Part shown: positions 5,313-14,328 of the stretch, one piece after another
Position numbering within the stretch: position 1 is the first letter of the stretch
Layout of the letters: each line of letters opens with the position of its first letter
Assembly: GCA_021295965.1 (NCBI GenBank)
Contig: JAGWBI010000033.1
Coordinates: 439 to 41,270 of the forward strand
Direction of reading: 5' to 3'
From: Dehalococcoidia bacterium
Lineage (GTDB): Bacteria > Chloroflexota > Dehalococcoidia > Lucifugimonadales > UBA3495
Length of the DNA: 40,832 bases
Position numbers and translations under genes: made by a program
The notes under the pieces: model-generated
The model's database searches: none
Told to the model about the DNA's origin: nothing
What the model saw: only the letters and a program-made list of their open reading frames with translations

Positions 5313-8300
5313 ATGATCCGCAGTTTCGGCCTCCTGCTCTGGCTTTTGCCGCGTCGTATTCGCTCGGCATGGGGCCTGCTGGCGGTGACCGCCTTCGGAG
5401 TGCTGGCGGCGGTAACCATTATGGCCCTGGGAGCCATGTACTCCCAGGCCTTGGCCGAGGCCGGCTTGCGTCACTCCCTGGCCGTCACGTCGGCCACCGT
5501 GATCAACACCCAGATTGTCGTCCGCAACCGTCCGTTGGGGCCGGAGGACTATGCCGCGCTGCGCACCGACATCGAGGCCATCATCGACGATACGGTTGGC
5601 TACCTGCGGCGAGACCAGAACCGCTACGCCAAGATGCTGCCCACCCTGCCCTTTACCCAGGTGGGCGCGCCCTTCGGCATCAACGACGTTCCGCTGGGCC
5701 GGCCCTTGTTCCAGACGGGATTTACCGAGCATTCCCGCCTCCTAGAAGGCCGCTGGCCGTCTGACGCGATAACCCGCGACCCTGCCGGATGCTCTAACCT
5801 GGAAGGAGGCTGCCCCCGAATTGAGGGGGTATTGGGAATTGACACGTCGCGGCTCATGGGTTGGGGCGTCGGCAAGGAAGCCTGGCTGGTGGTATTCCCG
5901 GCGGACGAGGAGACCCTCCCGCAGTACATCGCCGTTACCATCGTGGGAATCGCTGAAGCCATCGACCCCAGGGCGGAATATTGGATGGGTTCCGCAGACC
6001 ATTTCCGCATGGGCGACTGGGAAGGCCGTCCCGTTGCGCCGATCTACGTGACGGAGAACGCCTATTTCAACGCCATCGGCAAGGATTACCCTACGTTGGT
6101 GGGCGATTATGGCTGGTTTGTGTACATCAACCCCGACGTCATCACCGCCGGCACGGTGCAGGACACCCGAGACAACCTGACCGCCCTGGAAACGGACATC
6201 AACAGCCGGTTCCCCCGATCCTACATCATCACCGGGTTGGAAAACAGCCGCAACACCGGCCTGCTGGCGACCTATCAGCGGGAACTGACGCTGGCCCGCG
6301 CCCCGTTGTTCCTGTTCATTTCCCTGGTGGTGGTGGTCATACTGTACTTCCTCGCTCTGGCGGTGGGCCTGCTCGCCGGCGCCCGGTCCTCCGAGTCGTC
6401 GATGTTGCGCAGCCGGGGCGCCAGCGTCGGTCAGGTGGGCGGCCTGCTGGCGGTGGGCGAGGGCCTTGTCGTGTTGGCCGCCACCCTCGTGGGGCCGTTG
6501 ATCGCATGGGCCATCGGCAGCGTGCTGGTTGAGACCATCAATCCCGCATCCCGGGCCGGCGCGGGAGAAACGCCGTTGGTGGTCTCGCTGTCCTGGCAGA
6601 TGTACGCCATGGGGGCAGTGGGCGGCCTGCTCAGCCTGGCCGTGTTGACTGTCGCCGGCGGCAGCCTGGCCCGTTTGGGCATCCTGGATTTCCTGCGCGC
6701 CCGCGCCCGTCCTCCATCCGCGCCCTGGATACAACGCTACTATATCGACGTGCTGGCCGTGATCGCGCTCGCCGTCCTCATCTGGCAGATCCGGCAGCGC
6801 GGCGGATTCGTGGAAGGCGAACTGACCGGCCGGGGGCCGTCGTTGGACCCGTCGCTGTTGCTGGCGCCATCGGCGGCGTTGCTCACATTGGCCTTCCTCT
6901 TGCTGCGGGCTTTGCCGTGGATCATGACCGGTACCGCCTGGGCGGCGCAGCGGACGGCTCCGGCCTGGGTCGCGCTGTCGCTGCGTCGGATGGCGCGCCA
7001 CCCGCTGCCCTATGCCTCGTTGACGGTGGTGGTCACGCTGGCGGCGGCGCTGGGCGTGTTTGCCGGATCATTTCAGACCACCCTGGCCCTCAGCGAGGCG
7101 GATCAGGCCAGGCACCGCATCGGCGGCGACATAACCCTCGGCGGCACCAGCTTCATCGGTCGCACCGCTGAGGATCGCATAGCCAGCTTGAACGCCGTTG
7201 ACGGCGTGGAAGCGGTCAGCCCGGTCATACGGGAATCGGTGGGCTTCGTAGATGGCCCGACCCAGCGCGGCGCCGTGCTGGGCGTAGATCCCCTCACCAT
7301 CCACCAAACCTCCTGGTGGCGGGATGACTTCGCCGACGACGAGCCGGCGCCGCTGGATACATTGATGGCGCCGCTCCGCCGCACCCTGGCGCCCCTGGAG
7401 GCCGGCATAGCCTTGCCCGAAGGTACGGATCGGGTTGGCATCTGGGTGCGGCGCGATGACGGCGAAAACGTCGGTTCAGCCGTTCCGCTGCCTACCTACC
7501 GTCTCTGGATGCGCATCGGCAATGACCGCGGGTTTTATCGCAACCTGGAGTTGGGGACGCTGGCGCCCTTTACCGGCGGCGGGTCCGGAAACGATGGTTG
7601 GCAGGAAATGATCGCGTCGTTACCCGAGGAGAGCATCACCGCTTTGGCCGACGACCGGTGGCGGGTGGTGGCGGTGTTCCTGTCGGGAGACTCCTTCGCC
7701 CGTACTCCGCCGGGAGGATTGTCTTTCGATGACGTCACCGCGTATGGTTCGGGCCTGCCGGCATCAGGGGAAGTCGTGGATGGATTTGAGGATGTTGGCC
7801 CGTGGGAGGCGCTCCCCCAGGGTGGCAACGTGACCGACCGACTTGAACGCAATCCCCAGGCGGCGCGCCGGGGAGACAATGGCCTGTCCATCATCTGGGA
7901 AGAACCCTTGGGACGCTCGCCCCGGGGCATCGTGATCCCGCCGGGGCCGCTGCCCCTGCCGGCGGTGGCCGGGCCGGGCTTCACGCCGGGGCAACCCGTG
8001 CGGTTCACCGTTGACGGATACATCGTGCCCGCCCAGGTCACCAGCACGGTGAACCACTACCCGACGATGGACTCCCGACGATCGTTCCTGGTGGTGTCAG
8101 TCCACGAGTTGCGAGCGTGGCTGGCCCAGGCGCCCGGCGCGCAGACTATCACGCCTGATGAATGGTGGTTCGGCTTGGCCGAGGACGCTGACCGGGAAGC
8201 CGCCGCCGCCGCCATACTGGACGTGGGCTACCGCCTTTCGTTCCTGCGGGACCGGGACGGAGCCGTGGACCTGGCCACCCGCAACCCGTTGGCCGGCGGC

Positions 8301-8723
8301 GCGTGGGACGCGCTCACCGGCATCGGACTGGCCGCGTTGGCGCTGGCGGTGGGTCTTGCGTTGTGCGCCCACGCTGCGGTGGCCGTCCGTGAGCAGCGAG
8401 TGGACATGTCGGTGGGCGCCGCGTTGGGACTGCCCCGTTGGCAGCGGTTCGCAGGACTGGCACTGGAACGCGCCATCATCGCGGTGTTGGGCATCGTGGT
8501 AGGCGGCCTTTCCGGCTGGGCGCTGGCCCGCTGGACCCTGGGTGAACTGGCCGGCAACGCGGCCGGCGGCCCGGTCACCCCGCCCATCGTATTCGTAGCC
8601 CAGGGGCCGTGGCTGGCGGCCACGTTCCTCTGCCTGGTCATCGGAGCCGCCGCAGCCATCACCCTGGCTGGCGCGGTGGCCGCCCGGCTGCGCCCGCCGG
8701 AAGTGCTGCGGGAGGCGGAGTAA
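5313..8723 (+). CDS. Large double-FtsX-domain permease (ABC-type, MacB-like), copy 1
   Basis: An 1136-residue membrane protein with the layout of duplicated FtsX/MacB permeases. There is an N-terminal helix (about 20-42) and an extracytoplasmic domain (about 45-325). A helix bundle follows at about 331-355, 377-400 and 429-450, with the FtsX marker MLRSRGASVGQV between the first two. Further helices lie at about 476-493, 515-535 and 565-585. A second extracytoplasmic domain (about 590-995) precedes three C-terminal helices (about 1001-1022, 1050-1070, 1097-1120). Such permeases work with a LolD/MacB-type ATPase in lipoprotein or lipid handling or efflux. No such ATPase is encoded in this window. 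It is paralogous to 10924-14328 along its whole length. No strong ribosome site precedes ATG 5313. Confidence 0.85.
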   Translation: MIRSFGLLLWLLPRRIRSAWGLLAVTAFGVLAAVTIMALGAMYSQALAEAGLRHSLAVTSATVINTQIVVRNRPLGPEDYAALRTDIEAIIDDTVGYLRRDQNRYAKMLPTLPFTQVGAPFGINDVPLGRPLFQTGFTEHSRLLEGRWPSDAITRDPAGCSNLEGGCPRIEGVLGIDTSRLMGWGVGKEAWLVVFPADEETLPQYIAVTIVGIAEAIDPRAEYWMGSADHFRMGDWEGRPVAPIYVTENAYFNAIGKDYPTLVGDYGWFVYINPDVITAGTVQDTRDNLTALETDINSRFPRSYIITGLENSRNTGLLATYQRELTLARAPLFLFISLVVVVILYFLALAVGLLAGARSSESSMLRSRGASVGQVGGLLAVGEGLVVLAATLVGPLIAWAIGSVLVETINPASRAGAGETPLVVSLSWQMYAMGAVGGLLSLAVLTVAGGSLARLGILDFLRARARPPSAPWIQRYYIDVLAVIALAVLIWQIRQRGGFVEGELTGRGPSLDPSLLLAPSAALLTLAFLLLRALPWIMTGTAWAAQRTAPAWVALSLRRMARHPLPYASLTVVVTLAAALGVFAGSFQTTLALSEADQARHRIGGDITLGGTSFIGRTAEDRIASLNAVDGVEAVSPVIRESVGFVDGPTQRGAVLGVDPLTIHQTSWWRDDFADDEPAPLDTLMAPLRRTLAPLEAGIALPEGTDRVGIWVRRDDGENVGSAVPLPTYRLWMRIGNDRGFYRNLELGTLAPFTGGGSGNDGWQEMIASLPEESITALADDRWRVVAVFLSGDSFARTPPGGLSFDDVTAYGSGLPASGEVVDGFEDVGPWEALPQGGNVTDRLERNPQAARRGDNGLSIIWEEPLGRSPRGIVIPPGPLPLPAVAGPGFTPGQPVRFTVDGYIVPAQVTSTVNHYPTMDSRRSFLVVSVHELRAWLAQAPGAQTITPDEWWFGLAEDADREAAAAAILDVGYRLSFLRDRDGAVDLATRNPLAGGAWDALTGIGLAALALAVGLALCAHAAVAVREQRVDMSVGAALGLPRWQRFAGLALERAIIAVLGIVVGGLSGWALARWTLGELAGNAAGGPVTPPIVFVAQGPWLAATFLCLVIGAAAAITLAGAVAARLRPPEVLREAE

Positions 8724-8834
8724 TCAGCGCGCGATGACCGTGTTGGGCAGGAATTTTGGTGACAGGAGGCCGTTGCGTAACTAGTCGGATGGGCATTACC
8801 ATGCCGCAGGAACTACGAAACCACGAGGCAGGTC

Positions 8835-9422
8835 ATGGCTACTTATACTCAATACTTACCCTCGATTGATGAATTGGTCAGCCGTGGCTGGATCATCGTT
8901 TACGATGAAGACGCCGATGATGCCGTTGCAATCAGGTCGGTTATACGTCGGTGGGGTCAATTGACCTGGGCTAAACAAACCTACTACCGCGCCAAGTACG
9001 GTTTTGACGAAAGGGGTGTACTGGACATAAGCCTGCCGCTGGTCAAAGTGGCTCCCGGCCCGCGTACTGGCTGCTTTTACCCCAACACTAACGTCAACCC
9101 CGGCGAGTTCCCCACACCGGATGTTTCTATGCAGGGCTCAGATAACCGCTTGAAAGCAATCTTGGAGAGGAGTCGCATTGCGGTGCATCGCAACCGCTAT
9201 GATGATTCGGCTCTGACGCACGTTGGCCCGGACAACACGCTGATCCTCACTAACGCGGCCGGATGGGGGCCACCACGAACCGAACCTTACGGCTATGCCG
9301 AGCTGGATGATAGATATATTTGTCTTTGGGAATACAGTCTCGATACCTGGGGTACCGAGGCTCCATGGTGGGCAGACCCGGATGACTACGAGCATTGCAC
9401 ATTCTGGTATGGAGATCCCTAA
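8835..9422 (+). CDS. Unknown 195-residue protein, first gene of nuclease cassette
   Basis: Not recognised. A soluble-looking protein of 195 residues, rich in Tyr, Trp and Asp (for example WGTEAPWWADPDDYEHCTFW near the C-terminus), with no signal peptide or membrane segment. It starts at ATG 8835 behind GAGGCAGG. It has no methyltransferase motifs (no PCQ, no DPPY/NPPY-type motif), so it is not an obvious modification enzyme. Its stop ends two bases before the HNH gene, which suggests a common transcript and translational coupling. Base composition is lower in GC than the flanking FtsX genes, as in the next two genes. A regulator, immunity factor or accessory subunit are possible roles, but nothing in the sequence shows it. 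Confidence 0.65.
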   Translation: MATYTQYLPSIDELVSRGWIIVYDEDADDAVAIRSVIRRWGQLTWAKQTYYRAKYGFDERGVLDISLPLVKVAPGPRTGCFYPNTNVNPGEFPTPDVSMQGSDNRLKAILERSRIAVHRNRYDDSALTHVGPDNTLILTNAAGWGPPRTEPYGYAELDDRYICLWEYSLDTWGTEAPWWADPDDYEHCTFWYGDP

Positions 9423-9424
9423 CT

Positions 9425-10192
9425 ATGCCTGCGGCATCCGGCTGGACACGGCAGCAATTGTTAGTGGCTTTTGCGCTGTACTGCCGCTTGCCCTTTGGAA
9501 GATTGCATTACCGGAACCCGGAAATCGTCCGGTTTGCGAATGCCATCGGGCGGTCTCCATCGGCGTTAGCAATGAAGCTCACCAACATTGCGAGCCTAGA
9601 CCCGGCAATTACATCCACAGGCCGCGCCGGGTTGAGAGGGGCATCAGCTAATGACCGCGCAATGTGGGAGGAAATGCAAAGCGATTGGGAAGGTTTTGCG
9701 GTGGAGTCCCAGCGGGCCGTTGGTGAAGCGATGGATGCGGCAGAGCCTGATGACGAAGTCGTGGGAGAAGCGGATGCGGACCGTGTTGGAGAGGACCGAG
9801 CCACGCAGACCACGACGCGCATCGGTCAAAGTTTCTTCCGTGCAACAGTATTAAGCGCTTATAACGGACGATGTTGCATCACCGGATTGTCCTTGCCCAC
9901 TTTGCTAAGAGCAGGCCACATCATTCCTTGGCACGTTGATAAATCTAACCGGGTGAACCCTAGAAACGGTCTGCTACTGTCTGTGTTGCACGAGAGGGCT
10001 TTCGACGCCGGCCTGATTACCATTAACGACGATATGACGGTTCGCGTATCCTGTAGGCAGGCCGTGGACAACGACGATTTCTACACAACGTCCGTCTCAC
10101 GATATGATCAACAGCCGATTAATCTTCCTGAAAAATTTGGCCCTGATCAAAAGTTTCTCGCTTATCACCGAGAAAACATCTTTCAACAATAA
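9425..10192 (+). CDS. HNH endonuclease (HNH_2 type) with N-terminal specificity-like domain
   Basis: A 255-residue putative DNA endonuclease. Residues 7-60 (WTRQQLLVAFALYCRLPFG, RNPEIVRFANAIGRSPSALA, KLTNIASLDP) form the helical N-terminal domain common in a family of putative HNH restriction enzymes. An acidic linker (about 100-130) follows. The C-terminal HNH_2 domain has CCITG (150-154), AGHIIPWH (163-170), NPRNGLLL (178-185) and LHERAFDAG (188-196), giving the expected H165, N181 and H189. ATG 9425 is chosen because GGAG at 9411-9414 lies 10 bases upstream and the previous gene stops at 9422. It sits between the unknown gene and an EcoRII-C nuclease on the same strand, in AT-richer DNA (one 60-base line at 10081 counts 42% GC). 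Confidence 0.85.
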   Translation: MPAASGWTRQQLLVAFALYCRLPFGRLHYRNPEIVRFANAIGRSPSALAMKLTNIASLDPAITSTGRAGLRGASANDRAMWEEMQSDWEGFAVESQRAVGEAMDAAEPDDEVVGEADADRVGEDRATQTTTRIGQSFFRATVLSAYNGRCCITGLSLPTLLRAGHIIPWHVDKSNRVNPRNGLLLSVLHERAFDAGLITINDDMTVRVSCRQAVDNDDFYTTSVSRYDQQPINLPEKFGPDQKFLAYHRENIFQQ

Positions 10193-10203
10193 ACATATCC
10201 GAT

Positions 10204-10917
10204 ATGGTTACCCTTGCCGACGCCGTGGTTGGGCGTGGAGACGTCCGTTGCTGGCTAGCCCCTGAACAAATGCCGGAGCGGTGGCTTGAACGATTCCCAA
10301 CGCCTCAAGAGATATTTGACAGGGCATTGGCGTTGCAGGCCCATCGTGGCTTGCCAATGGACGAACGTATGATACGGTGCAGGGATTGCGAATATGCTGT
10401 TTTTCGGAGCGTTGAGCATGCTGTCGAATCCAGAGTAATTGAGGAGGGCTTCAACTCCATTGACGAGTTCCTCGCCAGAGCCCAAACGATATTGCAACGA
10501 CGTAAATCACGAGCGGGCCGGTCGCTGGAATTGCAATTGCGCGCTATTCTTGATGAGGAAAATACCGCCTACGCATTCCAGCCGACAACCGAATCCGGCA
10601 ACCACCCTGACTTCATATTCCCTTCGCAAGAGGCTTATGACGACCCGGACTATCCGGTCAGCAGATTAAGGATGCTGGCTGCCAAAACGACCGTCAGAGA
10701 ACGTTGGCGGCAAATTCTCAACGAGGCTGACCGCATTCCAGTGAAGCATCTTTTTACTCTGCAAGAAGGTATGTCGGAAAACCAATTTGCTCAGATGCGC
10801 GATGAAAACGTCCGCCTTGTGGTACCAATCCTATTGCATACTCGGTATCCGCAATCGGTGAGGGGTGAGTTGATGACACTGCAAGATTTCGTGAGCGAAA
10901 CCCGCGCCATAGCCTAA
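10204..10917 (+). CDS. EcoRII-C-type restriction endonuclease (catalytic domain form)
   Basis: A 237-residue type II restriction nuclease homologous to the C-terminal catalytic domain of EcoRII (CCWGG specificity in EcoRII). Visible blocks are RRKSRAGRSLE (99-109), NHPDFIFPSQEAY (133-145), LAAKTTVRERWRQILNEADR (158-177), HLFTLQEGMSENQ and ENVRLVVP. D136 and K161 are 25 residues apart, as are PD and AK in EcoRII, and Y145 and E174 are also at the EcoRII spacing. The N-terminal 95 residues are short, contain CRDC (59-62) and are not the EcoRII effector domain, so this resembles single-domain relatives. No cytosine methyltransferase is encoded nearby, which is unusual for this family. The start has no clear Shine-Dalgarno. 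The next FtsX gene starts six bases after its stop. Confidence 0.88.
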   Translation: MVTLADAVVGRGDVRCWLAPEQMPERWLERFPTPQEIFDRALALQAHRGLPMDERMIRCRDCEYAVFRSVEHAVESRVIEEGFNSIDEFLARAQTILQRRKSRAGRSLELQLRAILDEENTAYAFQPTTESGNHPDFIFPSQEAYDDPDYPVSRLRMLAAKTTVRERWRQILNEADRIPVKHLFTLQEGMSENQFAQMRDENVRLVVPILLHTRYPQSVRGELMTLQDFVSETRAIA

Positions 10918-10923
10918 CCAACC

Positions 10924-13900
10924 ATGACCGCAATCCTAAATCTCGGCTACGTCCTCGCCCGGCGGCGGCTGATGTCGTCCTTCCGCATCGAGCTTACGGT
11001 GCTGCTGGGCGTTACGCTGGCGGTGGTGCTGCTGTCCAGCGCGGTGGTGTTCAACGACTTGCTGGCGGAGACGGCCCTGCGCCGCGCCCTGGCCGACGCC
11101 GAGCCCAGCAACGTGAACATCTGGGTCCGAGTGTTCAACGACCTGGACGACCCGCGCACGGCCACGCCGTCCAGCGACCGTTACTTGACCAGCCACCAGT
11201 TCGTCGCTCATCGTGTGCTGCCTCCCCTGGGCGACGCCGTTGGCGCTTTATCTTTCCAGGTGGAGACCGCCACCTTCTATTTCACCGGCCGGCCCAACCT
11301 GGATTTGCCAAACGACGTGCGCCCCCGAGGACGCATGCAATACCTCTCCGGGCTGCGGGAGGGAAAGGGCACGCTGGTGCAAGGCCGTTGGCCGGAGTTG
11401 CCCGCCGATGGTGGCTATGACGACAGTACCGGCAACACCGACGACGTAGTCATTGAAGTCGCCGTGGATTCGACTGGCTTTGAGTTCCTCGACATTCCCT
11501 TGGGCGAAGGTTTCGGCATCGTTCCCGCCACCGGCGGCGACGGACAGGCCACCACTCAGGTAGTGCTGGTAGGGGTGGTCGAGCCAACCGACCCGGACGA
11601 GGAATACTGGTATCGCCGGCAAAAGTTGCTTTCATATCACGACGACGACTGGACCCTGGTGCCCATGTTCGTGGCGGAAGACGCCCTGCGCCAGCAGGTG
11701 GGACGCCGTTATCCGGGCATCTACACCAGTTCGGCCTGGTTCCTGCAGACCGACCGGGAAGGCATCCCGGCCAAGAAGGTTGACGAGCTGCAACAGTCGC
11801 TCCGACAGGTCCGCCGCAACGTGGCCAACCACCTGCCCAACGGCAGCACGTCCACCGGCCTGGCGCGAATCCTGGAAGACCATGAGGAGCAGCTGCTTCT
11901 GGCGCGCATCCCGCTGTTCCTGATGGTGTTCCTGGTCACGGGCATCCTGGCCTATTACCTGACCATCACGGCCGGCATGGTCATACGGGCGCGGGGCAGC
12001 GAAATCGCCATGCTGAAAAGCCGTGGCGCGACCACGGTGCAGATCGGCATACTGACCCTGGTGGAGGGATTGCTGCTGGCCGGTCCCGCGCTGGTTGCCG
12101 GCGCCTTGCTGTCGCCTCTATTGGCCCGAGGTTTGGGCGGGCTGGTGTTCGACGCCGAGTCCGCGGGCGCGCCGGTGTCGTTATCCTGGCAGGCTTTCGG
12201 CATGGGCGCGGCCGGCGCGGTCCTGGCGGTGGTGGTGTTGTCGCTGGCCACCCTGGCCGCTGCCAGCAAGGGCATAGTGGAGTTCCGCCAGGCCGGAGCC
12301 AGACCGGCCCGTACGCCCTTCGTTCACCGCTACTACCTGGATCTTCTGGCGCTAGCGGTCATCGCCTTCCTTTGGTGGCAGATTTCCAACCGGGGCACGG
12401 TGCTGACCCGCAGCCTGGGAGGTCGGGAGCTGGAGGTGGATTTCGCTCTGCTGCTGGGACCGGCATTGGGACTGGTCGCGCTGGGACTGCTGGTGATGCG
12501 TGTATTCCCGTTGGCGATGGGGCTGTCGGCCCGGGTGGTAGGCCCGGTGGGTCCGGGCTGGTTGGTACAGGGACTGCGCCGCATCGCCCGGGACCCCATC
12601 GCGCCGGGCAGCCTGGTTGCCCTGCTCATGCTGGCAACGGCTCTGGGCGTGGTGGGCAGCGCATTTTCGGCGACGCTGACCAAGAGCACGGACGATCGCG
12701 TGCGCTACGACGTTGGCGCTGACATACGCATACAGCACGACGGTGGGCGCATCGCCCGCGCCTTCACCGGCGCGTCCGAGATGCTGCCCGGAGGCGCCGA
12801 GGCGATGCGGACCGAAGGCAGCCTGCTCACCGAGGGATTCGGCTCCCAGCGGGTATCGGTGCTGGCCGTTGAATCGGACCGCCTGGCCGACGTGGCCTGG
12901 TGGCGAGAGGATTTCGGCGACGGCAATACGCTGCCGGAACTGATGGCCTTGATCGCACCGAACCCCAACGCGCCGGAGGGCTTGCCGTTGCCCGAGAACA
13001 TCACCGGCCTATCGCTGTGGGCGCGTACCGGCGGGCTTCAGGACCGGCTGGTCGCCGTGGCAGCAAGGCTGCGGGACGGCGCCGGTCGGCATTACGACGT
13101 CCGCATGGGCGACGTCAGCGGTCACCAATGGGAGCGGCTGGATGGAGACATTGCTCTGCGCTTGGGACGCACCGGTCGCCGCACCGAGGACGAAGACCGG
13201 CCCCGCCTGGATGTGCCTCCCTACACCCTGATCAACCTGCAAATCGTGGGGCGTACCAGCGCCGACCGACCCGGTGTGTTGTTCATGGATGGGCTCACCG
13301 CCCAAACGCCCCAGGGCGACGTGGTGATCTCCGATTTGGCCTCCGCGGCGGGTTGGAGCGTCATCGAGGACTACGTGCGACCGGGGTTGTATTCGCTGGA
13401 GACCAGCCGCAACGTGGCCCGGCCGGGGGCGCAGGGTTCAGTGGTATTCAGTTGGGCCCCCGGCGGCATTGGAGTGCCCGGCCTCCGACCCGGCGAAAAC
13501 TCGCCGCCGCTTCCGGCGGTGGTCAGCCCCGAAATCCTGGACGCCACGGGCGCAGAAGTCGGCGATGAAATCAGCCTGGGAATGTCCACCTTCGCATTGC
13601 CCCTGGTGATCACCGGCGTGGCCGAATTCTTCCCCACCGTCGATCCCAGGTCACAGCCCTTCGTAATCGCTGATCTGGGCGAGTTCGTGGACTACGCCAA
13701 CCGCCACAGCCGCCGGATTTTCGGAGGAGCCAGCGAGGTTTGGTTGGACCGGGAAATATTGCCGGGAGACCTGGAAACCGCTTTGGCCGCCGCCGATGAC
13801 GCCACGGGCCAGATATCCCAGCTGGGCGTGAACAGTGGGGAGGTAATGGTGGCGGAGGAAGAGGCGGCCCTGCGCGGGAAAGAACCGCTGGCCAACGCCG

Positions 13901-14328
13901 GTTGGGGCGGACTGTTGGTGATCATGTTCCTGGCCCTCGCCCTGGCCAGCGCCACCGGCATCGCGCTGTATTGCTGGCTGGACACCAGGGAGCGGCAGAC
14001 CGAGTTCGCCCTGCTGCGCACGCTGGGCAGCAGTCGCGGGCAACTCAACGCCGTGGTGTGGTTCAACCTCGCTGTTGTGGTCGTCGCCGGCGTGGCGGTG
14101 GGCACGTGGGCCGGAGCTCAGATCGGCGCAGCCCTGCTGCCGGTGCTGGAAGTGGCCGAGGGTGGCGTCCGCGCCACTCCGCCGCTGACCTTCGAAACCG
14201 ACTGGCGGATGCTGGCCCTGGCCTACGCCGTTCTGGCCGTGGTGAGCGTAGTGACGGTGATCTGGCTGGCATTCGTCACCAACCGGTTGGAAGTGCAACG
14301 GGTGCTGCGGGCCGGCGAAGGGGGATAG
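10924..14328 (+). CDS. Large double-FtsX-domain permease, copy 2
   Basis: 1134 residues, with helices at nearly the same positions as copy 1: about 20-42, 330-353, 375-400, 423-446, 470-487, 507-530, 560-581, then 994-1018, 1045-1068 and 1095-1118. The FtsX marker MLKSRGATTVQI follows the second helix. Two large extracytoplasmic domains (about 45-325 and 585-990) lie between the helix groups, and the late ALLRTLGSSRGQL block is typical of FtsX C-terminal bundles. It is probably a partner of copy 1 in one ABC-type complex; this is inferred from adjacency and shared layout. It begins six bases after the restriction nuclease stop and shows no ribosome site of its own, so its expression may now depend on the cassette. 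Confidence 0.85.
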   Translation: MTAILNLGYVLARRRLMSSFRIELTVLLGVTLAVVLLSSAVVFNDLLAETALRRALADAEPSNVNIWVRVFNDLDDPRTATPSSDRYLTSHQFVAHRVLPPLGDAVGALSFQVETATFYFTGRPNLDLPNDVRPRGRMQYLSGLREGKGTLVQGRWPELPADGGYDDSTGNTDDVVIEVAVDSTGFEFLDIPLGEGFGIVPATGGDGQATTQVVLVGVVEPTDPDEEYWYRRQKLLSYHDDDWTLVPMFVAEDALRQQVGRRYPGIYTSSAWFLQTDREGIPAKKVDELQQSLRQVRRNVANHLPNGSTSTGLARILEDHEEQLLLARIPLFLMVFLVTGILAYYLTITAGMVIRARGSEIAMLKSRGATTVQIGILTLVEGLLLAGPALVAGALLSPLLARGLGGLVFDAESAGAPVSLSWQAFGMGAAGAVLAVVVLSLATLAAASKGIVEFRQAGARPARTPFVHRYYLDLLALAVIAFLWWQISNRGTVLTRSLGGRELEVDFALLLGPALGLVALGLLVMRVFPLAMGLSARVVGPVGPGWLVQGLRRIARDPIAPGSLVALLMLATALGVVGSAFSATLTKSTDDRVRYDVGADIRIQHDGGRIARAFTGASEMLPGGAEAMRTEGSLLTEGFGSQRVSVLAVESDRLADVAWWREDFGDGNTLPELMALIAPNPNAPEGLPLPENITGLSLWARTGGLQDRLVAVAARLRDGAGRHYDVRMGDVSGHQWERLDGDIALRLGRTGRRTEDEDRPRLDVPPYTLINLQIVGRTSADRPGVLFMDGLTAQTPQGDVVISDLASAAGWSVIEDYVRPGLYSLETSRNVARPGAQGSVVFSWAPGGIGVPGLRPGENSPPLPAVVSPEILDATGAEVGDEISLGMSTFALPLVITGVAEFFPTVDPRSQPFVIADLGEFVDYANRHSRRIFGGASEVWLDREILPGDLETALAAADDATGQISQLGVNSGEVMVAEEEAALRGKEPLANAGWGGLLVIMFLALALASATGIALYCWLDTRERQTEFALLRTLGSSRGQLNAVVWFNLAVVVVAGVAVGTWAGAQIGAALLPVLEVAEGGVRATPPLTFETDWRMLALAYAVLAVVSVVTVIWLAFVTNRLEVQRVLRAGEGG

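Follow-up and report, generated by a model that had tools for sequence, protein, structure and literature searches.

Three tightly spaced open reading frames lie on the + strand between two FtsX genes in the window, by which we mean the whole 40,832-nucleotide stretch of DNA that was analysed. Their products are a protein without a family (gene1), a nuclease of the HNH type and the catalytic domain of EcoRII standing alone (EcoRII-C). The features of the locus are as follows; the name FtsX is that given by the preliminary description of this DNA.

5313-8723 (stop 8721-8723), + strand: FtsX1, the upstream host-context gene
8724-10923: inserted segment between FtsX1 and FtsX2
8734-8740, + strand: copy of ATGACCG at the 5' edge of the insert
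8835-9422, + strand: gene1, 195 amino acids, family-less protein
9425-10192, + strand: HNH nuclease, 255 amino acids from the ATG at 9425
10204-10917, + strand: EcoRII-C, stand-alone catalytic domain, 237 amino acids
10924-10930, + strand: second copy of ATGACCG, where FtsX2 begins, at the insert's 3' edge
10924-14328, + strand: FtsX2, the downstream host-context gene

For the HNH gene we used the ATG at 9425; the mechanical list of open reading frames starts it at TTG 9395. The preliminary description was accurate on layout and composition: gaps of 2 bases (gene1 to HNH) and 11 bases (HNH to EcoRII-C) separate the genes, and the trio is AT-richer than both neighbours, with a GC content of 53-54% and GC3 of 56-59% against 67% and 81-82% in the FtsX genes. 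The seven bases ATGACCG that begin FtsX2 recur at the 5' edge of the insert (chance about 0.001 on a rough base-composition estimate), and the pair is a possible target-site duplication or microhomology. A promoter and terminator scan of 8600-11000 gave scores below the shuffled means. The window contains 252 CCWGG sites, and the stretches counted showed no avoidance of this motif, so an active enzyme acting on unprotected DNA has left no visible pressure there.

Three proteins and their relatives

The three assignments made from the letters alone (an unknown protein, HNH_2 and EcoRII-C) agree with Pfam. gene1 has no family match in Pfam, NCBIfam or PADLOC. We found it in only three of the genomes searched (the window's own genome, G000, and G041 and G035), directly upstream of HNH in all three; a pattern scan of viral contigs and a plasmid search at E 0.01 gave no match. 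Its predicted model is of low confidence (pLDDT 58), Foldseek recovered no fold match to that model at E<=0.001, and the two weak matches among PDB sequences (E 0.33 and 2.2) are to unrelated enzymes.

The HNH protein matches HNH_2 in Pfam (E=1.2e-12) and, over nearly its full length, the PADLOC model PDLC04132 (E 1.2e-117), which carries no description. Tested for domain kind, its C-terminal domain is an HNH_2 of the modification-dependent VcaM4I/TagI sort. The N-terminus is predicted to form three helices (residues 9-21, 32-40 and 45-56; block-mean pLDDT 94-97); we recovered no structure match that covers this part well, and the EVE and SRA sensor domains are absent by Pfam. The gene is present in 26 of 393 genomes of the class, and 4 of its 39 loci carry EcoRII sequence. 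Most lie away from EcoRII, with varied neighbours such as Vsr, an SNF2 helicase and ASCH. The window protein was aligned with 29 relatives, and an HNH tree did not show the EcoRII-adjacent rows as a single clade.

The window's genome holds a second HNH copy, 63% identical, on contig 45 (L046 7005-10584), between Vsr and an ASCH-domain gene and near a 134-residue fragment of a C5 methylase. In two congeners, G007 and G006, HNH stands in a cluster with a C5 methylase, a GmrSD_N-like protein, an unknown protein and Vsr (L050 4322-8747, L051 5148-10021); the G006 version has an additional, second Vsr. The C5 methylase of this cluster differs from that of the EcoRII system. Given these clusters, HNH and methylases may be partners and not opponents.

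EcoRII-C matches PF09019 over the entire model (positions 1-165 of 165, E=6.1e-62), and its residues 23-234 align with the catalytic domain of EcoRII (E=3e-60). Among the best 20 of 2595 plasmid records with a match, all with the annotation restriction endonuclease, identity is 46-54% along 93-99% of the gene. The EcoRII-N effector domain (PF09217) is absent from all three proteins and leaves no significant trace in 8500-11000. The match to EcoRII is far beyond chance, but it covers only the catalytic half of the enzyme.

We compared EcoRII-C with the EcoRII of G007, whose catalytic domain is 76% identical; the window protein, at 237 against 400 residues, is more than 20% shorter. Its reading frame is open, with no frame damage, and the residues conserved in the family are kept. 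The dN/dS ratio is 0.096. When differences were polarised, 17 fell on the window and 24 on G007, and at 66 columns invariant in five outgroups the window deviates at 8 and G007 at 9, 7 of them shared. There is no excess of changes over G007, so decay of EcoRII-C is not visible, and the gene was either truncated recently or is still selected for. At 1.64, dS for EcoRII-C is twice that for FtsX (0.76-0.82), a comparison between genes that differ in codon bias. By eye, we saw no Shine-Dalgarno-like sequence before the EcoRII-C ATG; such sequences precede gene1 and HNH, and also EcoRII in G007 and in G065. A first scan of a collection of genome contigs with EcoRII-C as query gave no match.

The FtsX junction, the methylase and EcoRII loci elsewhere

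FtsX2 was found at cut-off in 13 of 14 genomes sampled from the genus, the window's included. In 10 of the 13 the junction is empty, with the two FtsX genes abutting or overlapping, and in G003 an amidase-like gene, identified by eye, lies upstream. In G007, Pfam names four genes at the same junction: C5 methylase, Vsr, an EcoRII-N on its own and a complete EcoRII. A cognate methylase beside EcoRII in a close relative is a find that the preliminary description had set against its own proposal of a new system. The solo EcoRII-N of G007 (L007 12417-12923) precedes the full gene and is 61% identical to its N-domain, a duplicated effector domain.

In G007 as in the window, 6 bases separate the end of EcoRII from FtsX2, and 4 of the 6 agree, so that the two inserts seem to share their 3' edge. 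At the 5' side they differ. The junction is best read as one at which an EcoRII system had its 5' part swapped for gene1-HNH; alternatively, two insertions at one preferred site are possible. Comparison of the sequences shows the two junction states, that of G007 and that of the window, and from them we infer the order and mechanism of replacement.

The window holds no methylase, as first noted. Whole-genome searches with PF00145 and PF01555 gave none on its contig (C34, 41,270 bases) among the matches listed, and the methylase and Vsr of G007 as queries found nothing in the window at E<=0.1. A remote methylase, which the preliminary description had offered as a protector, was not borne out for C5 enzymes either: searches of the genome, which is 86.6% complete, found none of M.EcoRII type, and the only C5 matches to the cognate enzyme, one 33% identical across roughly half the query and the other 39% identical across 79 residues, belong to a single gene in pieces. 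A remote methylase of another type is possible, with eight N6/N4 matches above cut-off. The one that aligns best with the N6/N4 methylases paired with EcoRII-C-like enzymes (26%) has an NgoMIV-like partner: on contig 65 (L159 6254-8430) this restriction gene adjoins it in an apparently complete R-M system. Contig 7 (L001 1387-2850) encodes a fusion of C5 methylase and Vsr domains, with two upstream genes that lack a Pfam match. When 36 HNH-bearing genomes were searched with the G007 methylase, G007 and G015 alone gave close matches of nearly full length; 11 others, including G041, gave weaker part-length ones (35-47%).

We sought EcoRII-C in 60 relatives, 393 genomes of the class and 400 of the phylum, overlapping sets searched at differing cut-offs, and found it in a union of 19 genomes. 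At 16 of the 19 loci a methylase lies within about 1 kb. It is of C5 type in 11 (G007, G015, G075, G340, G307, G149, G665, G694, G771, G697, G480) and of N6/N4 type in 5 (G373, G087, G140, G366, G673); G087, G140, G366 and G673 (distant relatives) and G480 (EcoRII with stops) are weak cases. EcoRII is broken at two of the 16: in G149 by a frameshift and deletion that leave N and C parts in different frames, and in G480 by the stops. HNH was found at none of the 16 at E 1e-5. By contrast, it lies directly upstream at all three methylase-less loci in the stretches fetched (the window, G041 and G065). For 3/3 against 0/16, Fisher's test gives 0.001, or 0.003 without the five weak cases, for three loci that are perhaps not wholly independent. 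Outside the 19 falls G125, from the same genus as G065, which has HNH and EcoRII-N only. Counting it, HNH is directly upstream of EcoRII sequence on the same strand in four of four loci.

The pieces of EcoRII kept beside HNH vary: C only, a C remnant, N with a damaged C, and N only. The G041 remnant is truncated and frameshifted, and that of G065, by comparison of alignments, is without the block that carries a conserved lysine, which we take to be catalytic. No EcoRII was found at the gene1 locus of G035. Across a 57-residue comparison, a weak one because the G041 piece is from a pseudogene, G041 shares 67% identity with G065 and 54% with the window, and the window is 88% identical to G007. 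In G041, direct repeats of 137 bases, 88% alike, flank the gene1-HNH-EcoRII remnant (L009 8788-8924 and 10840-10976), and one copy overlaps the start of a neighbouring gene; long duplications of the target have been reported around R-M genes, and these repeats are like them.

Four plasmid loci (of 20 listed among 2595 matching records), in Devosia, Acidiphilium, Sphingomonas and Raoultella, stand outside the count of 19. C5 methylase sequence lies near EcoRII in all four, split over two frames in Devosia. HNH of the window type is absent from them at E 1e-3, save for a 25-residue scrap in Acidiphilium (E 0.001); another gene annotated as HNH is present in two of the four.

These surveys divide what had been proposed for the trio. 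HNH with EcoRII and no methylase does recur in other lineages; gene1 was found in only three of the genomes searched. A conserved three-gene module with two working nucleases is not supported, with EcoRII broken or partial at the other methylase-less loci. The idea of a gated, modification-dependent system survives for HNH but not for EcoRII-C.

Readings of the locus

We favour, at a probability of roughly one half (0.52), the reading that an R-M locus has turned into a methylation-dependent, Type IV-like HNH locus in which EcoRII-C is an intact-looking leftover. An EcoRII-type system of C5 methylase, Vsr and EcoRII would once have stood between the FtsX genes, an arrangement that G007 retains. 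In the window's lineage, methylase, Vsr and the EcoRII N-terminal domain would have been replaced by gene1-HNH, leaving the catalytic domain behind. The HNH protein is most likely the working part today: it would bind DNA through the three-helix domain predicted at its N-terminus and, with its VcaM4I/TagI-like domain, cut DNA bearing foreign cytosine methylation, plausibly the C5mCWGG of the lost methylase. Such a nuclease would need no host methylase, would be harmless to a host free of that mark and would conflict with a methylase of the M.EcoRII type. M.EcoRII would place that mark on the DNA of its own host, and this would account for the missing methylase at the EcoRII loci in which HNH was found. 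gene1 would be an accessory of HNH, in a role that we leave unspecified. EcoRII-C itself is most likely weakly translated or silent, to judge from the lack of a Shine-Dalgarno-like sequence, the CCWGG-rich host DNA and the failure to find a cognate methylase; with so many sites in the window alone, an EcoRII left behind could not remain active unprotected. In a wider form of this account, EcoRII loci would repeatedly flip polarity, with a PcaRCII-like HNH that attacks C5mCWGG entering the locus and displacing the methylase that makes this mark, the stranded EcoRII decaying and the window, its catalytic domain still intact, representing an early stage. We consider this generalization rather doubtful. 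At the window locus, cutting of unmethylated CCWGG may have given way to cutting of methylated CCWGG.

Some findings count against the favoured reading, namely the undecayed EcoRII-C, the two broken EcoRII genes at the 16 methylase loci, the presence in G007 of both a complete EcoRII system and an HNH of the window family (63%), and the G007 and G006 HNH clusters with their other C5 methylase. The incompleteness of the genome, the small number of loci (three) behind the contrast of 3/3 with 0/16 and the want of a structure match that covers the HNH N-terminus well also weigh against it. G149 and G480 reject the notion that EcoRII breaks only where the methylase is missing; since decay is not confined to methylase-less loci, they slightly lower the odds of both the favoured reading and repeated polarity flips and raise those of chance association. 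Similarly, G007 rejects a strict per-genome exclusion of HNH and M.EcoRII, and both also occur in G015, where the HNH is a more distant one. Simple vertical decay from the G007 arrangement is insufficient, because G041 and the G065/G125 pair share the HNH position with another EcoRII lineage.

Chance association would make HNH a solitary defence gene that landed beside a dying EcoRII, through hitchhiking in defence islands and survivorship, with rearrangement tolerated only at loci that had lost their methylase. The scatter of HNH over the class, its varied partners and the rarity of EcoRII among its loci fit this view, as does the decay of EcoRII at two methylase loci that have no HNH. It does not account well for the constant upstream, same-strand position of HNH in four of four loci or for the contrast of 3/3 with 0/16, and we regard it as a possibility to be taken seriously, although not as probable. 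EcoRII-C could instead be an active single-site CCWGG nuclease whose methylase lies elsewhere, with HNH an unrelated neighbour. Its intact frame, the purifying selection and the lack of decay relative to G007 speak for such a separated R-M system, as do the candidates in the genome (the eight N6/N4 matches, the C5 methylase-Vsr fusion and the C5 fragment, with about 13% of the genome missing), the pairing of N6/N4-type methylases with EcoRII-C-like enzymes at 5 of the 19 loci and documented cases of the kind (PMC3488263). Yet the C5 matches are part-length pieces of a single gene, the best-aligning N6/N4 gene is already partnered and the presence of HNH at methylase-less loci is left unexplained; we think this unlikely.

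A single working module, in which gene1 or HNH gates EcoRII-C, would suit the tight co-directional spacing, the order of gene1 before HNH in all three genomes and the intact EcoRII-C of the window. At the other gene1 loci, however, EcoRII is broken (G041) or not found (G035), and the pieces retained differ from locus to locus, which makes such gating highly improbable. An independent, novel trio was rejected: gene1-HNH-EcoRII occurs in two genomes of the three with gene1, and EcoRII is intact only in the window.

Relation to known systems

Solitary restriction endonuclease genes are already known (PMC3488263), as is conflict between an HNH nuclease and a methylase, from an experimental case in Pectobacterium (PMC8989522). 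In the literature searched, which comprised open-licence papers, we found no report of an HNH gene replacing the methylase in EcoRII loci, and the part of the PMC3488263 survey of solitary restriction endonucleases that we could consult does not describe it. If the favoured reading is true, this conflict was settled at one genomic address by replacement of the methylase, and more than once; a single locus would have read one and the same CCWGG site in two opposite ways and would offer a worked case for the origin of solitary restriction genes, a long-noted puzzle.

The window resembles the Type IIE enzyme EcoRII in its catalytic domain and in the full system at the same site in G007. It differs in having no N-terminal effector domain, no Vsr in the window and no adjacent M.EcoRII-type methylase, and no such methylase was found elsewhere in the 86.6%-complete genome. 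As a restriction gene without a methylase in its vicinity, EcoRII-C is like the solitary endonucleases of PMC3488263, and by the length rule of that paper (more than 20% shorter than its homologue, here that of G007) it would be classed as a 'probably truncated RE'. VcaM4I is an EVE-HNH protein and TagI an SRA-HNH protein; the window HNH, unlike these, has neither sensor by Pfam and is predicted to have a helical N-terminus. R.PcaRCII of Pectobacterium is described as a solitary nuclease in which a bundle of three helices precedes a C-terminal HNH domain like that of VcaM4I and TagI; its gene is chromosomal and conserved, is not part of the R-M system, from which it lies apart, and is silenced by the methylase of that system (PMC8989522). 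The window HNH has a similar predicted layout and no methylase nearby, a likeness drawn from description and not from sequence; unlike PcaRCII, whose gene stands apart from the R-M system, it would sit inside a former R-M locus.
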